Assembly (NCBI GenBank): GCA_016290765.1
Contig: JAEEVE010000006.1
Span: forward strand, 1-36,045
Direction of reading: 5' to 3'
Origin: Muribaculaceae bacterium
Lineage (GTDB): Bacteria; Bacteroidota; Bacteroidia; Bacteroidales; Muribaculaceae
DNA: 36,045 bases
A program made the translations under genes and the position numbers. Every line of letters starts with the position of its first letter. Position 1 is the stretch's first letter. Positions 4,552 to 36,045 of the stretch are shown here, one piece after another. Below the pieces are notes generated by a model. The model did no database searches. It was not told the DNA's origin and worked only from the letters and a program-made list of their open reading frames with translations.

Positions 4552-5361
4552 TTAATTAGTCTTCTTGCAGGCGTTTCCGTCACACTGAGCCTTGTCCTTG
4601 CAGTCATGGCCGGCAGCCTTATCCTTGCAGTCGTGACCTTTGCCGCACTCAGCTTTTGCCTTGTCGCATTGAGCTTTCGCCTTGTCGCAGTTGTGGCCTG
4701 CTTTAGCCTTGTCGCACTGAGCCTTGTCCTTGCAGTCATGGCCGGCAGCTTTATCCTTGCACTCATGACCCTTGCTGCACTCAGCTTTCGCCTTGTCGCA
4801 TTGAGCTTTTGCCTTGTCACACTCATGACCTGCTTTTGCCTTGTCACACTCATGACCTGCCTTTGCCTTGTCACAGTCGTGGCCGGCAGCCTTGCAGTCG
4901 TGGCCTTCGCACTCGGCTTTCTCCTTGCCAGCGTGGCGCTGTCCGTCATGATGGCGGGCCTTGTTTCCACGCTGTTCGCGATCGGCCACCATTTGCTCAT
5001 ACTTTGCCTTCTGATCGGCCGTGAGAACGGCGGCTACTTTGGCATCAACCTCAGCCTGGCGGGCTTTCATCTGCTCTTTACGGGCCTTCATTTCTTCGGG
5101 CTTGGGTTGAACTTTCTTATCTTGCATTTGCTGCATCTCGGCCTTTGCTTGCTCTGCCTGCTCGCCGTAGATTGATGCGATGGCCGATTTCTGGTCAGGG
5201 GTGAGTTGCAGTTGCTTGTCGAGCATGGCAATGCGATGCTCAATCATCTTTTCGGGGTTCATACCGCCGCGAGGACCATGGTGACCGCGGCCTTGGGGCT
5301 GGGCGTTCATGCCGGCCACTGCCAGCAACGCCATCATGATAACAAAAATAGTTTTCTTCAT
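4552..5361 (-). CDS. Secreted Spy/CpxP-like (LTxxQ) protein with Cys/His-rich repeat tail
   Basis: Probably a periplasmic or surface metal-binding protein. The 269-residue product has a signal peptide (MKKTIFVIMMALLAVAGMNA), a Gly/His-rich linker, then a helical region with two LTxxQ motifs (LTPDQ at 53-57, LTADQ at 113-117), as in the Spy/CpxP family of periplasmic chaperones and metal sensors. Residues 151-267 are a repeat tail with 17 cysteines and nine GH-x-C units (GHDC, GHEC, GHNC) separated by Lys/Ala/Asp-rich spacers. The start at 5361 is chosen because it begins the signal peptide; an upstream extension of the frame to 5520 would cross the promoter at 5422-5452. Metal binding is inferred from the Cys/His pattern; which metal is unknown. 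Confidence 0.8.
   Translation of the reverse strand: MKKTIFVIMMALLAVAGMNAQPQGRGHHGPRGGMNPEKMIEHRIAMLDKQLQLTPDQKSAIASIYGEQAEQAKAEMQQMQDKKVQPKPEEMKARKEQMKARQAEVDAKVAAVLTADQKAKYEQMVADREQRGNKARHHDGQRHAGKEKAECEGHDCKAAGHDCDKAKAGHECDKAKAGHECDKAKAQCDKAKAECSKGHECKDKAAGHDCKDKAQCDKAKAGHNCDKAKAQCDKAKAECGKGHDCKDKAAGHDCKDKAQCDGNACKKTN
4561..4911 (-). repeat. Imperfect tandem repeats coding the Cys/His tail
   Basis: The DNA is a run of related units of about 15-27 bp coding GHDCKDKA, GHECDKAKA and QCDKAKAEC blocks. A larger block with KGHxCKDKAAGHDCKDKAQCD occurs twice. This suggests growth by internal duplication. Confidence 0.85.
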
Positions 5362-5421
5362 TGCGTTTGTTTTTAAAGAAATGAATGTTAGTATGCCATC
5401 GTTTAGCTTGTGATGACGGTG

Positions 5422-5452
5422 CAAAATTAGGACAAATATTTGAGTTGACAAA
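5422..5452 (-). promoter_or_regulatory. Promoter of the Cys/His-repeat protein gene
   Basis: Read on the minus strand: TTTG (5449-5452), a 19-bp gap, then TAATTTTG (5422-5429). Both elements match the Bacteroidota primary-sigma consensus. The leader to the ATG at 5361 would be about 55 nt. Confidence 0.75.
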
Positions 5453-5608
5453 ATAGTTTTTTGCCTGTTGCTGACCAATGCTAAAAAATCATTGACAAAT
5501 GCAAGATAAATGTAGACCAATCAACTGGGCGTAAAAGTGAGCAGAATGATTACAATATGTTAAAATGGCTCGTTATTTGCTAAAAAAATAGGGCAAAGGG
5601 CTTAAAAA

Positions 5609-8206: not shown

Positions 8207-11200
8207 TTACAGCCCGCGTCCGTGGCAGTTTTTGTACTTCTTGCCGCTGCCGCAGGGACATGGATCGTTGCGGCCCACCTTGGGACCAGCATTAACGATG
8301 GGTGCGGTGGGACCCTGGGGCTTGTGTGAGGCACCACGAGCTGCGGCTTGCTGAGCACGTGCGTTGGCAGCCACAGCATCTTCCTGTCCACCTCCACGGC
8401 TCTCTTGGTAGCGCGGCTGGCGCTGACGCGGCATTTCGCGTTCCTGGACAGTAGTGGGCTCTTGCATCGGGATTTGTCCGCGCATGAGGATAGACACTGT
8501 CTTGGCATTCATCTCGCCAACCATCTGCTTGAACATGTTGAACGATTCCACCTTATATATAACAAGGGGATCTTTCTGCTCGTAGCTGGCATTCTGCACA
8601 CTCTGGCGCAACTGGTCCATCTCGCGCAAGTGCTCCTTCCAACTCTCGTCGATGGTGAGCAGCATCAGCGCCTTCTGCCAAGCTTTCTGCAACGACTTGC
8701 ACTTGGTCTCATAGGCCTCCTTGATGTCGATGACGATTCCAAAGGTGCGTTTGCCGTCGGTGATGGGCACGCGTATCAGACCCTGCGGCTCCATGCCGTT
8801 GGCCTTCTGGTCGTTGACAATGTTTTCGATGACGGGATAGGCCACCTCGCTCAGTCGCTCGGTCTTGCGGTTGAAGGCTTTGAGCACCTCGTTGTATAGG
8901 GCATCAACCTTGTCCTGCTTGTCGGCACGGCGGAAAGTTTCCTCGTCGATATTCGGCTCAAGGGCATAGGTGCGCAGTACCTGCATCTTGTAGTCCTCAT
9001 AGTCATCGGGTCCAAATTTTTCGGTGATGTCCTCAACGCTGTCATACAGGGTGTTGATGATATCCAGGCCGATGCGCTCGCCCAGCAATGCGTGGTGACG
9101 GCGTGTATAGATGACCTTGCGTTGTGCATTCATCACGTCGTCATACTCGAGCAAGTGCTTACGGATGCCGAAGTTGTTCTCCTCGACGCGCTTCTGAGCA
9201 TTTTCGATAGCATTGGTGACGCGGCGGTCTTCGATGGCCTCGCCATCCTTGAGCCCAAGGAAGTCGAGCATCTTCACCACCTTCTCGCTGGCGAACAGAC
9301 GCATGACCTTGTCTTCAAACGAAACGAAGAACACACTGGAACCTGGATCACCTTGACGTCCCGAACGACCACGCAACTGGCGGTCGACGCGGCGTGACTC
9401 GTGACGCTCGGTGCCGATGATGGCCAGACCACCAGCCTCGCGCACGGCGGGGCTGAGCTTGATGTCGGTACCGCGGCCTGCCATGTTGGTAGCAATGGTG
9501 ACGACACCCTTGCCGTCGACTTGCTGACCTGCCTGTGCAACGATATCGGCCTCCTTCTGGTGCAACTTGGCGTTCAGCACCTGGTGCGGTATGTGACGCA
9601 GGTTGAGCATGCGGCTCAGCATCTCACTGATGTCGACCGAGGTCGTACCCACCAGAACAGGACGTCCGCTGTTGCGCATCAGTTCAATTTCCTCGATGAC
9701 GGCAAGGAATTTCTCCTTGGCAGTCTTATAGACGCGGTCGGGCATGTCGTTACGGATGACAGGCTTGTTGGTCGGAATAGTAACGACATCCAGCTTGTAG
9801 ATATCCATAAACTCGCCCGCCTCGGTCTCGGCAGTACCGGTCATACCTGCCAACTTGTGGTACATGCGGAAGTAGTTCTGCAGGGTGATGGTGGCGAATG
9901 TCTGTGTTGCCGCCTCGACGTTGACGCCTTCCTTTGCCTCGATGGCCTGGTGGAGTCCGTCGCTATAGCGGCGTCCCTCCATGATACGTCCTGTCTGCTC
10001 ATCTACAATCTTCACCTTGCCCTCTTCATCAACAATATATTCCTCATTGATGTTAAACAGGGTATAGGCCTTGAGTAGCTGAGTGACTGTGTGCACGCGC
10101 TCGCTCTTGAGGGTGTAGTTCTGTAGCAGCTCGTCTTTTTTGAGCACTTTCTCCTCATCGCTGATGTTTTCGTTGGTCACCTGCGATAGCTGTGTGGCAA
10201 TGTCAGGCAAGATAAAGAACTGCGGGTCGTCGGTACCCTTGGTGAGCACGTCGATACCCTTGTCGGTAAGCTCGACGGTATTGTTCTGCTCCTCAATAAT
10301 GAAGTACAGCGGGTCGGTGACAATGGGCATGTCGCGGCTGTTGTCCTGCATATAGAATGCCTCGGTCTTGAGCATGGCGGCCTTCACGCCTTCCTCGCTC
10401 AGGTACTTGATCAGGGGCTTGTATTTGGGCAGGCCCTTGAAGGCACGGTAGAGCAGCAGTGTGCCTTCTTTCTGCTCCTTCTCGTCATCGCTGGCCATCA
10501 AGCGCTTGGCATCGACCAGGAGCTTGGTCACCAGTTCGCGCTGGGCGCGGTAGACACGCTCAACGTTGGGCTTGTAGTCATTAAACATCTGGTCCTCGCC
10601 CTTGGGCACGGGACCCGAGATGATGAGTGGTGTACGAGCATCATCAATCAACACCGAGTCGACCTCATCGACGATGGCATAGTTGTGCATGCGTTGCACC
10701 ATGTCCTCAGGGCGCATGGCCATGTTGTCGCGCAGATAGTCGAAGCCGAACTCACTGTTGGTACCGAATGTAATGTCGCAGTTGTATGCGGCGCGGCGCT
10801 CGGGCGAGTTGGGTTGCGTCTTGTCGATGCACGCCACCGAGAGCCCATGGAATTGATAGAGCGGTCCCATCCACTCGGAGTCACGCTTGGCAAGATAGTC
10901 GTTGACGGTCACCACGTGCACACCATTGCCGGTGAGTGCGTTAAGGAAGACAGGCAGGGTTGCCACCAGGGTTTTACCCTCACCTGTGGCCATCTCGGCG
11001 ATTTTACCTTGATGCAGCACGGTACCACCAATGAGCTGTACATCGTAGTGTATCATGTTCCATACGGTATCGTTGCCGCCAGCCACCCAGTGGTTGTGAT
11101 AGATGGCCTTGTCACCATCGATGTCAACAAAGTCCTTACCCTCGGCCGCGAGGTCGCGATCCATCTGCGTGGCGGTGACAACAATGTCCTCGTTCTGCGC

Positions 11201-11563
11201 AAATCGGCGGGCGGTTTCCTTGACAATCGAGAAGACTACGGGTAGTACCTCGTTGAGTTTGTCCTCAAGCACTTCGAGGATTTCCTTCTCAATCTTGTCC
11301 ACCTTTTCCCACAGGGGCTCACGCTTGTCGTAGTCGAGCGTCTCGATCTCTTCCTTGATACGAGCTATCTCGTCACGCTTGTCCTGCACGGCATCGCGCA
11401 GTTGTTGACGGATGTCGGCGGTGCGCTGTCTCAGGGCGTCATTGTCGAGCTGTTCAATCTCGGGGTAGACAGCCTTGATGCTCTCGACCACAGGCATCAA
11501 CTTTTTCAGGTCTCGGTCCGACTTGGTACCGATGAGTGATTTCAGAAAATCTCTAAATCCCAT
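8207..11563 (-). CDS. secA: Preprotein translocase ATPase SecA
   Basis: SecA is the ATP-driven motor that pushes unfolded proteins through the SecYEG channel at the inner membrane. The protein has 1118 residues, longer than E. coli SecA (901), as is common in Bacteroidota. Walker A is in MATGEGKT (191-198), and the DEAD-like box DEVD is at 299-302, followed by [15 protein letters not shown]. The second helicase half has [47 protein letters not shown]. The extreme C-terminus is the SecB/zinc-binding tail with Cys1102, Cys1104, Cys1113 and His1114. The start at 11563 gives the usual MGF-x-F beginning. The many secreted and lipoprotein genes in this window depend on this route. A strong terminator follows. 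Confidence 0.98.
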
Positions 11564-26694: not shown

Positions 26695-29600
26695 ATGAAC
26701 AAAATCTACACCCTGATGATGGCGTTGTTAGTGTCATGGACATTGACCGCCAGCGCTCAGACCCTTATCGATGAGGGGTTTGAGAATGTGCCTGGGACTC
26801 AGACGACCGCCACCTTGCCAAATGGCTGGGAAATGGTCAAACAGTACCCTGGCGCAAATTTGAATTACCAGTGGGCTGTTCACTACAGCTCGAGTGGCAC
26901 AACTATGAGCGGACACAAGTATGCCGCTTGTGATGCGCCCACTTATTCCGACCCCAACAACATGGACGCTTTGGGCCCGCGCACCGAAATCCTGCTCACA
27001 CCAGCAGTCTTGCTCGACAACACTTACCAGCTCGCTTTTGACTGGGAAGCTGCAGCCTATGGTGTGCTTGAACAGAAGCAGTACACCCTCAAGGTGGGTG
27101 TCGTCGATGTCGCAGCTAGCGACACGACGGTCATCTTTGACATCACCAACGAGGAGCAAGTGCGCGCTAGTGGCGTGCCAGCCGACCCCTACGGACAGTA
27201 CCTGTGGGCCAACTGGGCCGTACAGACCTCAAAGATTGACCTCTCGCCCTGGCAGGGCAAGACTATCAAGGTCGCGTTTATCTATGACTTGCTCAAGCCG
27301 ACTGGCAATATTGTCTATTTGGACAATGTGAGCATCAAGCAGCATGTGCCCGAAACGGGTCCCATCGCCGAACTGACACAGACGACCTACCGTTTCCCCA
27401 CTGCTTACATTGGCGAGAAACTCTACAGCGAGGTGCTGACCCTCAAGAATGTGGGTCTCAAGGGACTGAAGGTCACTGGATTTGAGGGACCTGACGCCTT
27501 CAGCCTGGTGATGGACACCGTCAACATGAACTTGGATGTCAACGAGACTGCCCGCTTCCAGATTTGCTATCAGGCAACGCTGATGAGCCCTGTCCAAGCC
27601 GACCTGGTGATTAAGACCAATGGGGGTGACGTGACACTGCATGTGGAGGCCGCCAAGATGGCTGTGCCCGACGGATACCAGCTCGAGCTCTTCGAGGGTA
27701 ACCAGTTCCCGCCTGCTGGATGGGAAACCGGTGGCTCGCACATTAACTACTGGACCAGCACCATCTATGCCCTCGAGGGCGACAAGAGTATGATTGGCTC
27801 GCCCTATATCGAGGAGAGCAATATTACCACACCTCGCCTTGACCTGAGCAACGAGGAGACGCCCACCGAGTTCATGTTTACCTATTATGCCAACTTTGTG
27901 GGTGAGGATATCTACTATCCCAGCAACGACCTGATTGTGCAGGTTTCGAGCGATGGTGGTCAGACATTCAGTGATGCATGGGTCGCCGACTATACCAAGA
28001 CCGACACGCTAATCAATGTCACCGTCGACTTGGCGCCCTACCGCAGCGAGGATGTGCGTGTGCGCTTTGTCAATACCGCTTGTGGATGGGATGAGGACTA
28101 CGGCATGGACGACGGTAGCTCATTCATCATCGACCGGGTGCTTTTGCCAGGTGTCTACGGTGTGGATGGAGCGCCCATGGCAACCGAACTGATTGCACCG
28201 GCCGACAGTGCCATCAACATCTATCCCAAGCGCATCGTCTTGAAGTGGAAAGAGGCTCAGTTTGCTCAGGGCTACCGCGTGTATGTAGGCAAGAACAACG
28301 ACGGCAACCCGGCATGGGAGCTTGTCAATGGCGTGGATGCGGGTGCCACTACCACCTACACCATCCCCATGGCCGACTACAGCACGATGTATGCTTGGAA
28401 GGTCGTTCCTTATAATAATGTAGGCGATGCAGCCGACTGCCCAACATGGGTGTTCACTACTCAAGAAGACAAGTCGGTCACCGAGTTCCCCTGGAGCGAG
28501 GGATTTGAGAGTGGCACATTTGCACCGCTGGGATGGCTTGCCGAGGGCGGACAGTATACCCGCTGGTCTGCTAGCGACTATTCCCCCTTCGATGGCAAAT
28601 ATAGCGCAATGGCATTCAGCAACGAGATTGAGGTGCCTGCTATCCTCACTACGCCCGACATCCAAGTCAACCAGGAAGGCATGCAACTGAGCTTCTGGTG
28701 GGGTAATGATCGTCCCGTCAACCTCGTGAAGGACAACGAGGCCGTGCACCAGAACCATACCACCGCCGAGGACGGCATCGATGCCGTGATGATGGACATC
28801 CAGGTCAACGGTGGAGAGTGGGAGCAGCTCAAACTTTTGAGCGACAACAAAGAAGGAGTCGATGAAGATGGCGAGCCCATTCGCTACTGGGTCTATGAGA
28901 CGCTCGACCTCTCACCCTACTACGGCAAGAACATTGCACTGCGCTGGCGTTATATCTCGCACAACTACAGCCGTTCGCGTGGCGCAGCACTTGACAACGT
29001 AAAGATTGATCTCGCTGGTTCGAATGTGAGCTTCAGTCTGGACAAGTGGGATGCTTACAAGGTGAACGCCAGCAAGGTCGAGACCTCGCCCACAATGGCA
29101 CTGACCAACCTGGGTAATCAGGCTGTCACTATTACCGACATCAAGTTTGAACAGACTGGCTTCTCGACAACCCTGGCTAAGGATGTTGTAATCGATGCAG
29201 CCGGCAGTGAGCAGTTTACTGTCTCGTTCAATGCAGGCAAGCTTGCCGCTGGCAAGGACTCGTTGCGCGTCAACGACAAGATGACCGTCACCTTTAGCGA
29301 CAACAGTGTCGCAGTCCTGCCAGTGAGTGCCGTAGCCATGCCAGCCGACACGCGTTTCTTCGGCTTTGAGCACGATGCCACTGGCGAGGGCCCCGCTGAC
29401 TTTACCGTCATTGATGTTGACCGTCAGGCAACTAGCCCGCTCAGCTTCTGGGACTTCCCCAACAATGGATATCCCCTGGCATTCTTCGTGCTCAACGACA
29501 GCCAGTGCTACAACTCGCTTAAGGAGCCTCACGGACACCAGTCGCTGATGACCCGTTGCAACGGTGATGGCGCATTTGAGGACTGGATTGTCTCTGCACC

Positions 29601-30075
29601 AATTCTAGCAACCAGCAGGACCAAGTTTGAGTTTGATGCCCGCAACTGGGAGAGCATCAACAGCATCATGCCTGCACAGACCCCGACGCTGCAAGTACTC
29701 GTGAGCACCACCAGTGCTACCGACCGCAACAGCTTTACTCAGGTGGGATATGATGTCACGCTCGACCTCTATGACGATGTTGCATGGACCCACTTGAGCT
29801 ATGACCTCAATCAGTATGATGGACAGCGCATCTTCGTCGCATTGCGTGCCAAGGCGGCCAGTTGCCTTGGAGCGTTCTATGACAACTTCGAGTTGGCACA
29901 CGTGGGCGTCATGGGTGACGTGAATCAGGACGGCGTAGTCGACATCGCCGATGTCAACATCGTCATCAACGTGATGCTCGGCAAGGAAAGCAACACGTTG
30001 GCCGATCTCACTGGTGATGGCAAGACCGACATTTCGGACGTCAATACGGTCATTAACCTGATGCTTGGCAAGTAA
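26695..30075 (+). CDS. Large secreted adhesin-type protein with choice-of-anchor domains and C-terminal dockerin-like pair
   Basis: A 1126-residue exported protein. Start 26695 is chosen because it opens the signal peptide MNKIYTLMMALLVSWTLTASA; an in-frame upstream ATG (26629) would add 22 residues before it. Four regions look like cleaved-adhesin/choice-of-anchor J domains, each beginning with a GFE-type motif and ending with a LDN-type motif: about 22-215 (DEGFENVPG ... YLDNVSI), 325-490, 600-770 (EGFESGTFAPLGW ... ALDNVKI) and 890-1065 (FGFEHDATGEG ... FYDNFEL). A fibronectin-III-like piece is at about 495-590. The last 54 residues carry DVNQDGVVDIAD and DLTGDGKTDISD calcium loops with VINVMLGK and VINLMLGK helices, as in the LRR protein. 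Such modules occur in gingipain adhesin regions. The binding partner is unknown. Confidence 0.9.
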   Translation: MNKIYTLMMALLVSWTLTASAQTLIDEGFENVPGTQTTATLPNGWEMVKQYPGANLNYQWAVHYSSSGTTMSGHKYAACDAPTYSDPNNMDALGPRTEILLTPAVLLDNTYQLAFDWEAAAYGVLEQKQYTLKVGVVDVAASDTTVIFDITNEEQVRASGVPADPYGQYLWANWAVQTSKIDLSPWQGKTIKVAFIYDLLKPTGNIVYLDNVSIKQHVPETGPIAELTQTTYRFPTAYIGEKLYSEVLTLKNVGLKGLKVTGFEGPDAFSLVMDTVNMNLDVNETARFQICYQATLMSPVQADLVIKTNGGDVTLHVEAAKMAVPDGYQLELFEGNQFPPAGWETGGSHINYWTSTIYALEGDKSMIGSPYIEESNITTPRLDLSNEETPTEFMFTYYANFVGEDIYYPSNDLIVQVSSDGGQTFSDAWVADYTKTDTLINVTVDLAPYRSEDVRVRFVNTACGWDEDYGMDDGSSFIIDRVLLPGVYGVDGAPMATELIAPADSAINIYPKRIVLKWKEAQFAQGYRVYVGKNNDGNPAWELVNGVDAGATTTYTIPMADYSTMYAWKVVPYNNVGDAADCPTWVFTTQEDKSVTEFPWSEGFESGTFAPLGWLAEGGQYTRWSASDYSPFDGKYSAMAFSNEIEVPAILTTPDIQVNQEGMQLSFWWGNDRPVNLVKDNEAVHQNHTTAEDGIDAVMMDIQVNGGEWEQLKLLSDNKEGVDEDGEPIRYWVYETLDLSPYYGKNIALRWRYISHNYSRSRGAALDNVKIDLAGSNVSFSLDKWDAYKVNASKVETSPTMALTNLGNQAVTITDIKFEQTGFSTTLAKDVVIDAAGSEQFTVSFNAGKLAAGKDSLRVNDKMTVTFSDNSVAVLPVSAVAMPADTRFFGFEHDATGEGPADFTVIDVDRQATSPLSFWDFPNNGYPLAFFVLNDSQCYNSLKEPHGHQSLMTRCNGDGAFEDWIVSAPILATSRTKFEFDARNWESINSIMPAQTPTLQVLVSTTSATDRNSFTQVGYDVTLDLYDDVAWTHLSYDLNQYDGQRIFVALRAKAASCLGAFYDNFELAHVGVMGDVNQDGVVDIADVNIVINVMLGKESNTLADLTGDGKTDISDVNTVINLMLGK

Positions 30076-30091
30076 CACAGCATTTGAGGCA

Positions 30092-30120
30092 CTAGAGGCT
30101 CTAACATCTAGAGCCTCTAG
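30092..30120 (+). terminator. Hairpin after the adhesin-type gene
   Basis: A perfect 12-bp stem CTAGAGGCTCTA/TAGAGCCTCTAG with a 5-nt loop lies 16 bp after the stop. No T-run follows, and CCTCTAG recurs just downstream. It may only weaken read-through to the next gene. Confidence 0.5.
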
Positions 30121-30180
30121 AACCTCTAGTTAACTATAAAATCTCAAATATAATTCTAACCCAATTAAAAACAAGCACTT

Positions 30181-33159
30181 ATGAAACACTTAAACTATTT
30201 GCTGGGCGTGGCACTGTTGTTGCTGGGCTTCAGTTGGGCAAGTGCTGAGACGGTGACGAACTACACAGTAGACTTCAACACCACCATCAACACGAGCAGC
30301 AAAGATTTTAGAGTAGCTCCAGGATGGTCACACATTGTGGGGTATACTGGTTATGGTAGCTTATACAGCTATTATGAAACATCTGGCGTTGATGGAACGG
30401 GTACGTTATATTGCGGCTCGCAGCAGTCAACTTTAGACTATCTGGTAACTCCTGCCATCACGGGTAGCATGACCATCCAAGTCAAGCTGAGTTACAATGG
30501 AACCATCCAGTTCTATGCCATTAACGAGGCCGAAGATGGTACGCTAACCCCAGGTGACCTCCTGCTTGAGAAGTCATACAGCTCGGAAGAGGGTGCAGTC
30601 TTCGCCGAAATGGCAATCAGCAACCTTAACGGACAGCGCGTGGGCATCGTAGGCAAATATGCTTATCTTGATAACTTTGCCGTCAATGGCACTGCCGAGA
30701 TTGTGTACATGCCGGGCTTGACCGTTACGCGTGAAGGCTATACAAGCTGGATTTATCCCAACTGTGATGTGGATAACCACTTCACCTATGAGTTTACTAA
30801 CATCACCGTGACTAACACGGGTGAGCGCGACATCGCGCTTGGCGAAGAAGGCTTCAGTATTTCGATCGCTCCGCAGAACAAGCCCGATCAGGTCGTCAAG
30901 ACTCTGGAGATTCCTGTGGCACTGGCAATGGGTGAGTCCTACACCTTTGAGAGCATCATGGTCGAGGAGACCTATGACGCCAGTTGGACCGAGGCCAATG
31001 GACGCAAGCGCATGGACATCTATGAAAACATGGGTGGCACATCGTGCACGGGCAACTGGATTCAGCCCAATCCTTATCTGCCTGGCATGAGTGTCAAGTA
31101 TGGTACTAACGACCTGAGCGAGGCTGTTAATGCTGGCAAATTCGGAGGCTTCGGTATGATTGGCGAGGCTACTAGCCGCGTGGCTACCGTGAAGAACACG
31201 GGAGCTGCACCGCTGGTGGGTACGGTGACTCTCACGGCTGAGGGATGCTTCAGCATCGACAACACCACCATCAACTTGGCTGCTGGTGAGAGCGCTGACT
31301 ACACACTGACCGCTAGCGCTGAGACACCGGGTATCTTCACAGGCGAACTCGTGTTTGCCGGTGACGGAGTCGAGAGTGTAACGATTCCGCTGAGCGCTAC
31401 CGTGCTCGATGCCACCAAGTTCTTTGAGCCGTTTACCAACAACGCCAGCTCGACCAATATCCCCGAAGGCTGGTATGCTCCCACAGGCAACTGGACAAAG
31501 ACCAATAACACCAATGGCGACAACAACTACGCCAAGTGCGGTTTGTTGGCTCCCCACAAGCTGATTACCCCGCTGCTCAAGGTGACCGAGGGCGAGAAGA
31601 TGACCTTCGAGGCTAGCAAGCAGAGTGGTAGCAGCGAGCAGTTTGTCAATGTCTACTACAGCGCCGACCGCGTGGAGTGGACGCTGGTGAAGGAGATTCC
31701 TGCTAGCGAGATGGAAGGCTCATACGGCAATGTGGTATTTAAGACCTTCGTTGTCGAGGGTGTGCCCGCCGGTGACTATTACATCGCATTCGAGAGCGGA
31801 TATTGCTTGATTGACAACGTCTATGGCTTCGAGCGTGTGCCCGTCGACTACGATGTGGTGGTCAATAAGTTCGATATTCCTGGCACAGTCATGGCCAACA
31901 ATGACGTGACTGCTAAGGTGACTCTCCAGAACCTGCTGAATGAGGCCGTGGCAGAATATGCTCCTGCACTTTACTTCGCAGGCGTGAAGGTGGCCGAGGC
32001 CGAGCCCGTCGAGATTCCCGCCAACGGCACCGCTGTCGTTGAATTCACCTTCGTTCCCAACGAAGTGGGTACCTTCCCCGCAAAGGCCGAGTTTGTCTTC
32101 AGTGAGGACTACACCGTCACTACCAACGAGGTCGAGGTGACTGTCAACGAAGAGAGCGCCAATACTCTTGTGCAAGTGGGTAATCCAACCGCTACAGGAA
32201 CGAGTGTACCAGTGAGTCTGCTCTACAACAACAGTGAATCAGAGACAATCTATACTGCCGAGCAATTGGGCATCGATGCTAACTCCATGATTACTTCGTT
32301 GACATACAAGGGCTACAGCACTGGCTCTAAGACGCTGACCCCGACCGTTACAATCTGGTTGGCAAATGCCGATGATGCAACTTTGGTCAATGGAATTGCT
32401 AACGTTCCCCTCTACAACACCGATGGCATGACAAAGGTGTTTGAAGAGGTGGTAACTTTTGAACCTAAGGGCTCTTCCAGTGAGACTGTTGACATGCTTG
32501 TTGCCAACTTGAGCGAGCCGTTCATGTATACGGGCGGTAACTTGCGTGTGATTGTTCGTTCAGTCAATGACGATTGGACTTCTTTCTACTTTGAATATGA
32601 CGGCAATGTCTCAGGTCAATGCGTCTATCGTCGCAATGACAACCAGGATACCTTCCTTAATGGTACTACCGTGTCGGCCACTTACAATATGCCAGTGGTT
32701 TACTTGGGCATTCAGAAGGAAGCAGTTACCTACAGTGGCGTTGTCAACGACACCGATGGCAACCCGCTCGAGGGTGTGACCGTGACGTTGACCAGCCAGG
32801 CTGGCCGTGGCGCTACCGCCGGTCCCGCTGTCTACACTGCTACCACTGATGAAGAGGGTAAGTTTGAGGTCAATGTGGTTCAGGCCGACAAGACCTACGA
32901 CGCAACCTTCTCGAAGGATGGCTACAAGGATGTGAACATTGAGGGCATCGACTTTGCCGACGGCAGTGTCGCACTCGATGAGCCTGTAGTGATGGAACTT
33001 GACAACGTGACTGGTGTCAATGGCATCAACGCTGGCAAGACCGTCGCTAGCGTGAAGTACTACAATGTCGCTGGCCAGGCTGCCGACAAGGCATTCCAGG
33101 GCGTGAACATCGTGGTCACCACTTACACCGACGGAACTGCTGGCGGCGTGCCATTGTAG
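30181..33159 (+). CDS. Large secreted surface protein, 3' end replaced at the chimeric join
   Basis: The visible frame codes 992 residues, with a signal peptide (about 1-22, ending WASA). The body is beta-rich with repeated Ig-like spacer motifs (VKNTGAAPLVGTVTL, then AAGESADYTLTASAETPG) and a choice-of-anchor-like segment near FEPFTNNASSTNIPEGWYAP. A carboxypeptidase-regulatory-type domain lies at about 848-925 (YSGVVNDTDGNPLEGVTVTL ... GYKDVNIEGIDF). The end VASVKYYNVAGQAADKAFQG and then NIVVTTYTDGT is the common C-terminal segment of Bacteroidales secreted proteins, which normally runs on for about eight more residues ending in Lys. Here it turns into AGGVPL and stops, because the DNA changes source at about 33139. 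The true C-terminus is missing. Confidence 0.85.
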   Translation: MKHLNYLLGVALLLLGFSWASAETVTNYTVDFNTTINTSSKDFRVAPGWSHIVGYTGYGSLYSYYETSGVDGTGTLYCGSQQSTLDYLVTPAITGSMTIQVKLSYNGTIQFYAINEAEDGTLTPGDLLLEKSYSSEEGAVFAEMAISNLNGQRVGIVGKYAYLDNFAVNGTAEIVYMPGLTVTREGYTSWIYPNCDVDNHFTYEFTNITVTNTGERDIALGEEGFSISIAPQNKPDQVVKTLEIPVALAMGESYTFESIMVEETYDASWTEANGRKRMDIYENMGGTSCTGNWIQPNPYLPGMSVKYGTNDLSEAVNAGKFGGFGMIGEATSRVATVKNTGAAPLVGTVTLTAEGCFSIDNTTINLAAGESADYTLTASAETPGIFTGELVFAGDGVESVTIPLSATVLDATKFFEPFTNNASSTNIPEGWYAPTGNWTKTNNTNGDNNYAKCGLLAPHKLITPLLKVTEGEKMTFEASKQSGSSEQFVNVYYSADRVEWTLVKEIPASEMEGSYGNVVFKTFVVEGVPAGDYYIAFESGYCLIDNVYGFERVPVDYDVVVNKFDIPGTVMANNDVTAKVTLQNLLNEAVAEYAPALYFAGVKVAEAEPVEIPANGTAVVEFTFVPNEVGTFPAKAEFVFSEDYTVTTNEVEVTVNEESANTLVQVGNPTATGTSVPVSLLYNNSESETIYTAEQLGIDANSMITSLTYKGYSTGSKTLTPTVTIWLANADDATLVNGIANVPLYNTDGMTKVFEEVVTFEPKGSSSETVDMLVANLSEPFMYTGGNLRVIVRSVNDDWTSFYFEYDGNVSGQCVYRRNDNQDTFLNGTTVSATYNMPVVYLGIQKEAVTYSGVVNDTDGNPLEGVTVTLTSQAGRGATAGPAVYTATTDEEGKFEVNVVQADKTYDATFSKDGYKDVNIEGIDFADGSVALDEPVVMELDNVTGVNGINAGKTVASVKYYNVAGQAADKAFQGVNIVVTTYTDGTAGGVPL

Positions 33160-33950
33160 GCCGCAAGATCCTCGAGCGTGGTCTCGCCGGAGAGCACGCA
33201 CACAAAGTCGACGCCCGCGTTGTCGGCGATGGCCTTGTCGGTGTAGAGCCTGTCGCCAACGACGGCTATCTCCTCCGGGGCGAACTCGGCGAGCACGGGC
33301 GCGAGCAGAGTGGGGCTGGGCTTCCCGAAGACGTGGCTGGGCTTCATGCCGTTGGTGATCTCGAGAAACTTCATCATCCCGCCGATGTCGGGTATCGGGC
33401 CGCGCTCGCTTGGGCAGCAGTTGTCGGGATGCGTGGCCACGAAGTCCACGGGCGTCTGGTTCCTCGTGCGTACTGGGCACATCGGGCTCGGCGGGCAGTT
33501 GCGCATGTTCCAGAGCGACGTCGCATCCGCGAGCTTCGCGTACGTGAGCTCCTTGTCGTACGTGAGGGCGATGAGCTCGTTGCGCTCGGGATCGTAGTCG
33601 AGCGACACTCCGGCGTCCGCCAGCCGCGCCGCCATGTGAGCCTTCACCTTCTCGCTTGCGATGAGATACACCGACTTGTACCCCTTCTCGCGTATGTACG
33701 CCTCAAGCGTGATGAGCGGCGTGAGTATCTGCTCGGGCGTCACGGGAATCGCCGCGCCCGCGATCTTCTTCATGTACTCCTCAGGACACTTCGAGGTGTT
33801 GTTCGTGAGGTAGAAGTACCTGAACCTTCCGCTCTTCGTGTTGTCGATGACGAACTTCACCGCGCTCTCGATGGGGTTCGGACCCATGAAGAGCGTGCCG
33901 TCGAGGTCGCACACAAACGCCTTCTTCTTCGTCAGATCAAACTTGCTCAT
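33123..33950 (-). CDS. HAD-IIA (NagD-like) phosphatase, 3' end cut by the join
   Basis: A cytosolic HAD-superfamily phosphatase of the NagD/subclass IIA type; the substrate cannot be read from sequence. Motif I is DLDGT with nucleophile Asp15 and acid Asp17; motif II is YFYLTNNTSK; motif III Lys is in HVFGKPSP; motif IV is GDRLYTD (232-238). The cap part shows VATHPDNCCPSERGPIPD, typical of the family. An unusual segment NMRNCPPSPMCPVRTRNQ sits before it. The start at 33950 is chosen since the longer frame to 34031 crosses the -10 box, and AAGGA lies 10-14 nt upstream. The last residues (AVPSV) are encoded by DNA at or beyond the join, so the true C-terminus is probably lost. Confidence 0.85.
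   Translation of the reverse strand: MSKFDLTKKKAFVCDLDGTLFMGPNPIESAVKFVIDNTKSGRFRYFYLTNNTSKCPEEYMKKIAGAAIPVTPEQILTPLITLEAYIREKGYKSVYLIASEKVKAHMAARLADAGVSLDYDPERNELIALTYDKELTYAKLADATSLWNMRNCPPSPMCPVRTRNQTPVDFVATHPDNCCPSERGPIPDIGGMMKFLEITNGMKPSHVFGKPSPTLLAPVLAEFAPEEIAVVGDRLYTDKAIADNAGVDFVCVLSGETTLEDLAAYNGTPPAVPSV
33130..33150. other. Junction between two unrelated genomes (likely assembly chimera)
   Basis: Left of here the reading frame is a Bacteroidales secreted protein up to TDGT; right of here the minus-strand frame is a HAD phosphatase ending near GTPP. Both genes are cut at their 3' ends, GC rises, and promoter and ribosome-site style change. Confidence 0.8.
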
Positions 33951-33987
33951 CAGCTTCTTGTCCTTTTCGATGCGAGAGAACGCGCAC

Positions 33988-33993
33988 ATTATA
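33988..33993 (-). promoter_or_regulatory. -10 box for the HAD phosphatase gene
   Basis: TATAAT on the minus strand, 38 nt before the start. The -35 place is poor (GTGCCG-like) and abuts the inverted repeat at 34016-34038. Confidence 0.55.
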
Positions 33994-34015
33994 CCAAAAA
34001 ACTCGCGCTTCGGCA

Positions 34016-34038
34016 CCGCGCCGTTTGACACGGCGCGG
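34016..34038. promoter_or_regulatory. Perfect inverted repeat over the -35 box (candidate operator)
   Basis: CCGCGCCGT (34016-34024) and ACGGCGCGG (34030-34038) are exact reverse complements around a 5-bp centre TTGAC, which is part of the -35 hexamer of the isomerase-like gene. A regulator bound here would block that promoter and could affect the divergent one too. Confidence 0.6.
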
Positions 34039-34053
34039 CAATGCTAGTATAAT
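34025..34053 (+). promoter_or_regulatory. Consensus sigma-70 promoter of the isomerase-like gene
   Basis: TTGACA (34025-34030), exactly 17 bp, then TATAAT (34048-34053). Both hexamers are perfect consensus, unlike any promoter in the left part of the window. Confidence 0.88.
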
Positions 34054-34070
34054 AAACGCATCTTTCAAAC

Positions 34071-34077
34071 AAGGAGG
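34071..34077 (+). promoter_or_regulatory. Strong Shine-Dalgarno site fixing the start at 34082
   Basis: AAGGAGG lies 4 nt before the ATG at 34082 and rules out the longer frame opening at 34025, which would start inside the promoter. Confidence 0.9.
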
Positions 34078-34081
34078 AAAC

Positions 34082-35677
34082 ATGAACTGCACATCATGCG
34101 CACGGCGCGACTTCATCTACGGAATCCTGGCTGCTGCCGCCACTGGCGGAGCCGCGGCACGCGGAGAGCTGGCCGACTTCTTCGCGGCCCTTCCCGCCCC
34201 CACGCCCGCCGGCAGCATACCCGACAAGTCCGGCGCCGTCAAGGTGCGCCTCGTGTTCTCGATCTGGGACGACGTGCAGGTAAGGAAGACATGGCCCAAC
34301 GCGGGCTTCGATTTCCGTCCCGTGATGAAGAACATCACCGACGCGCTCAACGCCGGCGTTCCCGGCGTAAAGTTCGTCCCCGGCATGGCGTTCGACGCCA
34401 AGGGCTCCGCAAAGATCCTCGAGGAGGACGCCAAGGCCGGCGACGTCAAGGGCTATCTCGTCATCCAGATGAACTCCTGGCCAAACGCCCTCGCCGGCAT
34501 CGTCAAGGCCAGCAAGCCCACCCTCTTCTGCAGCTTCCCCTATTCCGGCATCGGCGGCTGGGACGTGCAGAACGCCGCGATGCTGCGCAGAAAGCAGAAG
34601 AACTACGCCTTCATGTCATCGCTCGACTTCAACGACACCATCGGCGCAGCCCGCGCGTTCGAAACGCTCAAGAACGGCACCGGCGAAGATTTCGTCAAGG
34701 CCGCCACAGAATACCGCCTCGCGCATACGCCAGCGGAAACAGGCATCAAACCGTGCGAGGGTCCGCTTGAATGCCTCTCTCCCGAGGAGACGCTCGCCGC
34801 GGTGAAAGGCAAGAAGATTCTCTCCGTCGAAGGCTGCGACGCGAAAACCAAGGCGAAGATCCTCAAGGACTTCGGCATCATCGTGGAGAACGTGAAGTTC
34901 GACGAGCTCAACGCCGCCTGGGAGAAGGTTCCGGAAGCGCTTGCAAAGGCCAAGGTCGAAGAATGGAAGCGCACGGCGCGCAAGATCGCCGGCGTCTCCG
35001 ACGAGACCCTCCTCGGCTGCGCCAGGCAGTTCTACGGCATGAAGGAGGTGCTGAAGGCGCACGGCGCAGTGGCCATCTCCGTCAACTGCCTCGGCGGATG
35101 CTACACCGGCAAGCTCCACGCCTATCCGTGCCTCGGCTTCATGGAGCTGCAGGACCTCGGCCTCTTCGGCACGTGCGAGAACGACATCCGCTCCACGACA
35201 GCTATGGTCGTCTTTGGCGCTATGACCAAAGGCCGCATGGGATACATCTCCGACCCGGCGATCGACTCGTCGCGCCGCGCGATGATCTTCGCTCACTGCG
35301 TGGCCACGCGCAAGTACCTCGGCACGGACGGCCCCACCGCTCCATACGAGATCGAGACACATTCAGAGGACCGCATGGGCGCGTCAGTGCGCTCGATCGC
35401 GCCTGTCAACTATCCCGTCACCACGGTGCAGTTCCATTTCTTCGGTGACGGCGGCAAGGGCTGCGCGCTGGTGCAGACGGGCCGCACGTTCTCGAACGAC
35501 CCCGACGACCGCGCCTGCCGCACGAAGATGGTCGTGGAGGTGACGGGCGACTTCGAGAAGTCGTACCGCCTCTGGGACCTCTGGGGCTGGCACCGCGTCA
35601 CCTTCCTCGGCGACTTCAAGAAGGACGTCGAGGCTCTCGCGAAGAAGATCGGCTACCGCGTCATCTACGAGTCGTGA
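34082..35677 (+). CDS. Tat-exported L-fucose/arabinose isomerase-like protein
   Basis: A 531-residue protein. The N-terminus has a twin-arginine signal (RRDFIYG at 8-14, then an Ala/Gly-rich hydrophobic stretch), so export in folded form is likely. The body resembles the L-fucose/L-arabinose isomerase-like family found in PVC and other bacteria: NCLGGCYTGKLHAYPCLGFM, then CEND (365-368) with STTAMVVFGAMTKGRMGYISDPAID, HC (405-406) and HSEDRMGASVRS, ending with WDLWGWHRVTFLGD. The acid and His residues fit metal ligands of the aldose-ketose isomerase fold. The enzyme activity and substrate are inferred only at family level. An exported location is unusual for a sugar isomerase. It is divergent from the HAD gene, with a consensus promoter, candidate operator and strong ribosome site. 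Confidence 0.78.
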   Translation: MNCTSCARRDFIYGILAAAATGGAAARGELADFFAALPAPTPAGSIPDKSGAVKVRLVFSIWDDVQVRKTWPNAGFDFRPVMKNITDALNAGVPGVKFVPGMAFDAKGSAKILEEDAKAGDVKGYLVIQMNSWPNALAGIVKASKPTLFCSFPYSGIGGWDVQNAAMLRRKQKNYAFMSSLDFNDTIGAARAFETLKNGTGEDFVKAATEYRLAHTPAETGIKPCEGPLECLSPEETLAAVKGKKILSVEGCDAKTKAKILKDFGIIVENVKFDELNAAWEKVPEALAKAKVEEWKRTARKIAGVSDETLLGCARQFYGMKEVLKAHGAVAISVNCLGGCYTGKLHAYPCLGFMELQDLGLFGTCENDIRSTTAMVVFGAMTKGRMGYISDPAIDSSRRAMIFAHCVATRKYLGTDGPTAPYEIETHSEDRMGASVRSIAPVNYPVTTVQFHFFGDGGKGCALVQTGRTFSNDPDDRACRTKMVVEVTGDFEKSYRLWDLWGWHRVTFLGDFKKDVEALAKKIGYRVIYES

Positions 35678-35712
35678 TTCGTGGTTCGTGGTTCGTGGTT
35701 CGTGGTTCGTGG
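35678..35712. repeat. Tandem heptamer TTCGTGG, five copies
   Basis: Five exact copies of TTCGTGG directly follow the stop codon of the isomerase-like gene. Confidence 0.95.
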
Positions 35713-35732
35713 TATGAGTGCGTGATAGATAG

Positions 35733-35795
35733 TTATAGGCCGGGCTAGGGGTAAGGGTGGCTAGGAATCCTAGCCAAGCCTAGCCAGGCCTATAA
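35733..35795. terminator. Nested hairpin between convergent genes
   Basis: Three nested perfect stems: TTATAGGCC/GGCCTATAA (35733-35741 with 35787-35795), GGCTAGG/CCTAGCC (35743-35749 with 35779-35785) and an inner GGCTAGG/CCTAGCC (35759-35765 with 35769-35775). It lies between convergent genes, so a two-way terminator is likely, but U-tracts are missing. It may instead be a repeat element. Confidence 0.55.
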
Positions 35796-35812
35796 TGGCC
35801 TATAATCCTACC

Positions 35813-36045
35813 CTACCGCAGGAACATGATCGTGCCGGCGGGGGCGATGTTCTTCAGCACGAGACGGCGATTCGCGACGGAGAGCGAGAACTTGTCGGAG
35901 TAGTCGTTCTCGCCGTCAGTCACCGTCACAACTGCGTCGGCGACATCATCAGGCGAGAGACCGGACACCTCGCCGGAGAGGTAGTACGAGAGGCACTTCG
36001 GCTTGTCGTTGAACGTGGCCTTCACTGCCCTGAGTTCGCGGAACG
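35813..36045 (-). CDS. Unknown protein, C-terminal part (5' end outside window)
   Basis: An open minus-strand frame runs from the right window edge to the stop at 35813 (about 76 residues visible, from FRELRAVKATFNDK). The sequence has Asp/Val-rich beta-strand character (VADAVVTVTDGENDYSDKFSLSV) and ends NRRLVLKNIAPAGTIMFLR. I do not recognise a family. It looks like the end of a large beta-rich secreted protein, but that is a guess. The internal GTG at 36025 is unlikely to be the real start as the frame stays open beyond it. Confidence 0.55.
   Translation of the reverse strand, partial: FRELRAVKATFNDKPKCLSYYLSGEVSGLSPDDVADAVVTVTDGENDYSDKFSLSVANRRLVLKNIAPAGTIMFLR

Follow-up and report, generated by a model that had tools for sequence, protein, structure and literature searches.

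A Bacteroidales-type metagenome contig that runs into Kiritimatiellae-group DNA at base 33138, a probable inter-genome chimera

Introduction

Inter-genome translocation misassembly is named as a class of metagenome contig error in the report describing metaMIC (PMC9661791). The window analysed here is the whole of contig C158 (36,045 bp), which belongs to G000, a metagenome-assembled genome (MAG) of 2.87 Mb in 313 contigs that is 83.5% complete and 5.07% contaminated. Read literally, this contig would suggest that genes had moved between phyla, and it would give a Bacteroidales genome both a consensus TTGACA/TATAAT promoter and a strong Shine-Dalgarno (SD) site. A preliminary description had proposed that two genomes are joined between positions 33123 and 33160. 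Homology boundaries, composition, gene order and the continuation of the left gene on another contig bear this out, and the location proves sharper than was claimed (33137/33139). We also agree that genes to the right of 33140 should not be credited to the left genome, with the boundary now set at base 33138, 2.9 kb from the right end of the contig.

Results and discussion

Two origins within one contig

The contig has two origins, the boundary between them lies within a base or two, and another contig of the same MAG, C60, bears the expected continuation of the left gene. The parts are as follows.

1 to 33137, no strand: left part, the MAG's own Bacteroidales-type genome (composition, genus relatives, SecA-like protein)
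33137 to 33139, no strand: join, where base 33138 (T) is unlike C60 and loci L030 and L031
33139 to 36045, no strand: right part, Kiritimatiellae-group DNA to the contig end (homology, composition)

Because of the named relatives on either side, the coinciding homology boundaries, the composition, the continuation on C60 with its kept gene order and the lack of a close right-part copy in the relatives searched, we read C158 as two genomes from different bacterial phyla joined at base 33138. The join is almost certainly an ordinary artefact of metagenome sequencing or assembly and not a real biological feature. More specifically, we infer that C158 is very probably an artefactual inter-genome chimera, formed during library preparation or assembly, whose join never existed in a cell. 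To this extent the analysis supports the earlier preference for an artificial join over a recent transfer. Matches on the two sides are to different genomes, Bacteroidales-type on the left and Kiritimatiellae-group on the right.

The right part

Four features are found in the right part.

33139 to 33950, minus strand: HAD-IIA family hydrolase gene without its last 10-14 codons (Pfam Hydrolase_6, 6.3e-18; Hydrolase_like, 6.8e-13)
34025 to 34053 and 34071 to 34077, plus strand: TTGACA-17-TATAAT promoter-like site and AAGGAGG, both with counterparts at that position in L030 and L031
34082 to 35677, plus strand: 531-aa isomerase-like protein (sulfoquinovose isomerase, NF048012, is matched weakly and only in part, at 39 bits where the cut-off is 700)
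35669 to 35716 and 35724 to 35815, no strand: TTCGTGG tandem repeat and a 92-bp stretch, both recurring elsewhere in the L030 MAG

Positions 33139-35711 are 95.6% identical at the DNA level, over 2573 bp, to L030 from a Kiritimatiellae MAG of roe-deer omasum, and positions 33139-35675 are 93.6% identical, over 2539 bp, to L031 from sheep rectum. The HAD gene, whose best NCBIfam match (TIGR01457) falls below the cut-off, is complete in both loci, and there it is followed in the same order by the spacer, the promoter-like site, AAGGAGG and the isomerase-like gene. Relative to L030, most differences fall at third codon positions: identity at codon positions 1/2/3 is 97.4/98.1/87.6% in the isomerase-like gene and 100/100/94.4% in the HAD gene. 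The 531-aa protein is 97% identical to a Kiritimatiellae protein and has 14 relatives in the scanned genome collection, titled as six Kiritimatiellae, three Lentisphaerae or Verrucomicrobia, four 'uncultured bacterium' and one Bacteroidales. Thirteen of these are 83-97% identical. The remaining relative, at 51%, is borne by locus L043 of the MAG titled Bacteroidales.

The TTCGTGG repeat lies just past the isomerase-like gene and matches 31 other places in the L030 genome and five in that of L031, a few of them at the very start of contigs. This spread rests on inexact matches, because an exact 20-base word of the repeat is present in none of the 33 loci examined. The stretch at 35724-35815 is 93% identical to another contig of the L030 genome, and the last 229 bp of C158 are 75% identical to a third. 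Within G000, no second match to any portion of the right part, including the repeat and the 92-bp stretch, was found at E<=0.001. Given the DNA identity and the repeat matches, almost the whole stretch of 2,907 bases is consistent with a single Kiritimatiellae-group genome, and by homology we assign them to an uncultured gut bacterium of this group.

The left part

On the left side, the protein encoded at 8264-11563, which we take to be SecA-like from its sequence, scores 1318 bits against a genome titled Bacteroidales. Among four Kiritimatiellae-group genomes, its best single piece reaches 585-616 bits in three (plus smaller pieces), and nothing was found in the fourth. The gene at the join and its match on C60 are the following.

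30181 to 33159, plus strand: secreted-type protein frame with its 3' end cut (Pfam CarboxypepD_reg and Ig-like domains)
32975 to 33137, plus strand: match to the end of C60, another contig in this MAG (163 bp, 97%, 5 differences)

The native codons of the secreted-type frame stop at 33137, and the remainder up to the stop codon at 33159 is foreign. Of 100 other genomes in the genus, 24 have relatives of the frame at E<=1e-60, some of them partial, and the best is 68% identical over all 985 native residues.

Three other observations concern this part of the contig. Positions 30090-30135, between two secreted-protein genes, hold a CTAGAGGCTCTAACATCTAGAGCCTCTAG-type palindromic stretch, and a similar CTAGATGTTCTA word comes after a paralog in L004. 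The frame at 923-2434 includes a long repeat of a 12-letter unit ahead of a region that looks like a pseudouridine synthase. Finally, a small secreted-type frame at 4552-5520 (minus strand) has a C-terminal half composed of a Cys/His/Lys-rich repeat (CDKAKAGH, CKDKAAGHD).

Homology boundaries and broken reading frames

Sequence alignments reveal a sharp breakpoint where both homologies stop: the match to C60 ends at 33137, and the matches to L030 and L031 begin at 33139. At base 33138, C60, L030 and L031 all have G. The window has T there, as do L011 and L025 from genus relatives, and the base is assigned here to neither side. When the 14 genomes with a relative of the right part were searched using window positions 29000-33300, ten gave matches, the best of which starts at 33138-33142 in nine genomes and at 33178 in the tenth. 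Neither side of the join was matched in the other four (G121, G124, G126 and G130, the last titled Bacteroidales), and to the left of the join none of the 14 gives a match of more than 55 bp. Approaching from the other side, the matches of genus relatives, among those listed, mostly end at or before 33142. The furthest, in G019:C53, extends to 33150, a few bases beyond the join, a result that does not help the case for a chimera. Two genus relatives have a separate match of 104-105 bp at about 33171-33275, inside the HAD gene.

Both genes are cut at this breakpoint. The left frame reads ...TDGT and then AGGVPL*, where C60 has ...TDGTTQTVKVIK* instead. On the minus strand, the HAD frame reads ...GTPPA and closes with VPSV*, whereas the complete frames of L030 and L031 continue with ...GTPPAIVVETFDKV and then ECGPN* or H*. 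The preliminary description had both frames losing their 3' ends within about 20 bp, and comparison with C60 and L030/L031 brings the two losses to the same point. This point sits within 8-14 codons of the 3' end in both genes, a proximity that we cannot explain beyond chance and that we count against the chimera reading.

With C60 and L030/L031 as native stand-ins, at most four shared bases (AACT, three bases out of register) are found near the join. No insertion sequence, integrase, mobility gene or direct repeat was seen there, either by eye across 29800-36045 or in the boundary comparison. A hairpin was considered as a cause of the join, and 71 bases around it were folded on both strands, with no result beyond those of shuffled sequences, so that this cause was rejected. 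The 24 bases that span the join were not found in viral contigs, a result of little weight given that neither partner is viral and that near records were possibly left out.

A likely native continuation on contig C60

On the minus strand of C60, the 163-bp overlap leads to the end of the gene (...TDGTTQTVKVIK*), then to a strong terminator hairpin after the native stop (-36.6 kcal/mol, z -6.7) and then to an 833-aa secreted-type gene. In G003, a similar hairpin sequence lies behind the ortholog of the truncated gene, and the ortholog of the 833-aa gene is found 132 bp beyond it. Both genes were identified at E<=1e-60 in 23 genus relatives. In ten of these, the two are adjacent on one contig in the same order and on the same strand (gaps of 120-621 bp), and in an eleventh, G050, they are adjacent across overlapping contig ends. 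All seven relatives that are at least 52% identical to the truncated gene fall among these 11. The C60 order is also kept, within 5 kb, in three more of the 23. The nine relatives that lack this neighbour order count against the chimera reading: in six (G042, G060, G093, G011, G088 and G012) the genes are on different contigs, in two (G075 and G043) the order is reversed, and in G072 they are far apart on opposite strands. Past the 833-aa gene, C60 continues with a recO-like gene and three others, an order that the searched stretches of G003, G005 and G023 do not show.

The C-terminal part of the truncated gene is repeated at eight places in G000 besides the window's own, which raises the possibility that the 163-bp match is to a paralog. 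We set this aside, though not as strictly excluded, as C60 is 97% identical, versus 69-87% elsewhere, and the next gene on C60 is also the next gene in close relatives. C60 is likely the true neighbour of the left gene. By arithmetic, four of the five differences in the 163-bp overlap fall at third codon positions, which suggests strain variation there.

Composition across the join

GC content increases from 0.525 (30181-33137) to 0.619 (33139-36045), as had been noticed earlier. To compare oligonucleotide profiles, we used a pentamer (fourth-order Markov) model, with 218,546 bases from 21 other contigs of G000 and 116,421 bases from the two Kiritimatiellae genomes as training sets. The training contigs are not random: those of G000 were hand-chosen, and those of Kiritimatiellae came from matches to the right part. 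The large stretch homologous to the right part was excluded, although small pieces resembling its end and its repeat are contained in the Kiritimatiellae contigs.

With this model, the best single change point to the right of 26000 is 33128. The right part scores -0.063, outside the range of +0.027 to +0.083 given by 65 leave-one-contig-out chunks of the 21 G000 contigs, and the profiles thus agree with the proposed boundary. All 11 chunks of 2.9 kb in the left part (1-31900) score as the MAG's own type. The 34 Kiritimatiellae chunks have a mean of -0.059 and a range of -0.094 to +0.075, which overlaps that of G000 via one odd chunk, L093 2901-5800 (+0.075). Another, L100 1-2900, scores +0.007, barely on the left-genome side, and both were kept in the counts. 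L093 2901-5800 (G117:C52) is a chunk of 46% GC that scores like the left genome in a Kiritimatiellae MAG, and it is possibly a foreign or misassembled stretch there.

Promoter-like and ribosome-binding signals

The preliminary description also proposed a switch of promoter type at the join, and the two motifs do lie as described. TTTG-N17-23-TAnnTTTG occurs five times in the window against 0.44 expected, always to the left, and the exact TTGACA-N17-TATAAT occurs once, at 34025-34053. However, the absence of the former from the right part weighs little, because this part is only 8% of the window. Likewise, TTGACA-N17-TATAAT with up to two mismatches gives two sites versus 1.65 expected, such that only exactness is notable.

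The claim that a strong AAGGAGG site appears where none is seen to the left needs a correction. The word ends four bases ahead of the ATG at 34082 (L031 has ATT where the window has this start codon), and AAGGA is just upstream of both right-hand gene starts. In contrast, none of 13 hand-chosen left gene starts has GGAGG, AGGAG, AAGGA, GAGG or GGAG just upstream. Nevertheless, AAGGAGG occurs five times in the window against 2.9 expected, and three copies precede the join; these are on the minus strand, and no listed start has one.

Origin of the join and alternative readings

An artefactual join would probably have formed in two steps. Differences between strains where the left gene ends, seen in the 97% variant of the 163 bp on C60, would have halted the assembler, and the bridge to a Kiritimatiellae contig would then have come from a chimeric read or from faulty gap closing. 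Because no more than the four AACT bases are shared near the join, we consider a repeat common to both genomes unlikely as the cause, and a chimeric DNA molecule likelier. The mechanism would thus involve a chimeric read or gap closing rather than such a repeat. The single unmatched base would fit ligation of a tailed fragment end, but this is speculation. A blunt join of this kind needs a chimeric molecule with coverage enough for assembly, which we count against the chimera reading.

The best-surviving alternative, though an improbable one, is a real and very recent transfer in which illegitimate blunt end joining placed at least 2.9 kb of Kiritimatiellae DNA in the secreted-protein gene of one strain, with the C60 strain as the empty site. 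The genes gained would be those for a HAD phosphatase and a sugar-isomerase-like protein, and the recipient would be a Bacteroidales-type gut strain with a co-resident C60 strain. The five differences in 163 bp allow for two strains, one of which may in principle have a real rearrangement. In addition, the high identity of the insert would fit recency, and the lack of a shared word at the join is as in blunt end joining. However, the region inspected by eye has no integrase, insertion sequence or direct repeat at the join, and Kiritimatiellae-type sequence continues to the contig end at 36045 with no return boundary within C158. Moreover, no close copy of the right part is present in 100 genus relatives or in 392 other genomes sampled from the order (absent from the latter at E<=1e-20), and the same insertion is found in none of either set. 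These sets overlap partly and hold one genome per species, and thus represent other species rather than other strains.

Some similarity does exist in the genus. Distant protein matches (23-27% identity, E<=1e-10) to the C-terminal half of the isomerase-like protein occur in 30 of the 100 genus relatives, and DNA matches of at most 105 bp, which we read as a HAD motif or chance, occur in ten. The distant protein relatives speak for the right part being a native island of odd composition that merely happens to have Kiritimatiellae relatives. We find this scarcely credible, since 95.6% DNA identity that includes the spacer contradicts it, and the dispersed repeats common to the window and the Kiritimatiellae MAG, together with two genes cut mid-frame, also argue otherwise. 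Equally far-fetched, and with no support found, is a reading in which the contaminant is the left part or in which all of C158 is Kiritimatiellae, as the left part resembles 21 other MAG contigs in its score, has genus relatives and goes unmatched beyond 55 bp in the 14 genomes with a right-part relative.

Comparison with known systems

If C158 is the artefactual chimera that we favour, the matter is one of data quality, and trimming C158 at 33138 would rid the MAG of the foreign genes. Such a chimera can be recognised without reads, from a continuation on another contig and gene order in relatives. C158 is like a recent inter-phylum horizontal transfer in that it has high-identity foreign DNA inside a gene, but unlike one it has no visible mobile element, no second boundary within the contig and no copy in the relatives searched. 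It resembles inter-genome translocation misassembly, as that class is named in PMC9661791, in having flanks from different genomes and a point breakpoint, and it differs from the class as presented there in being recognised from homology, composition and gene order.
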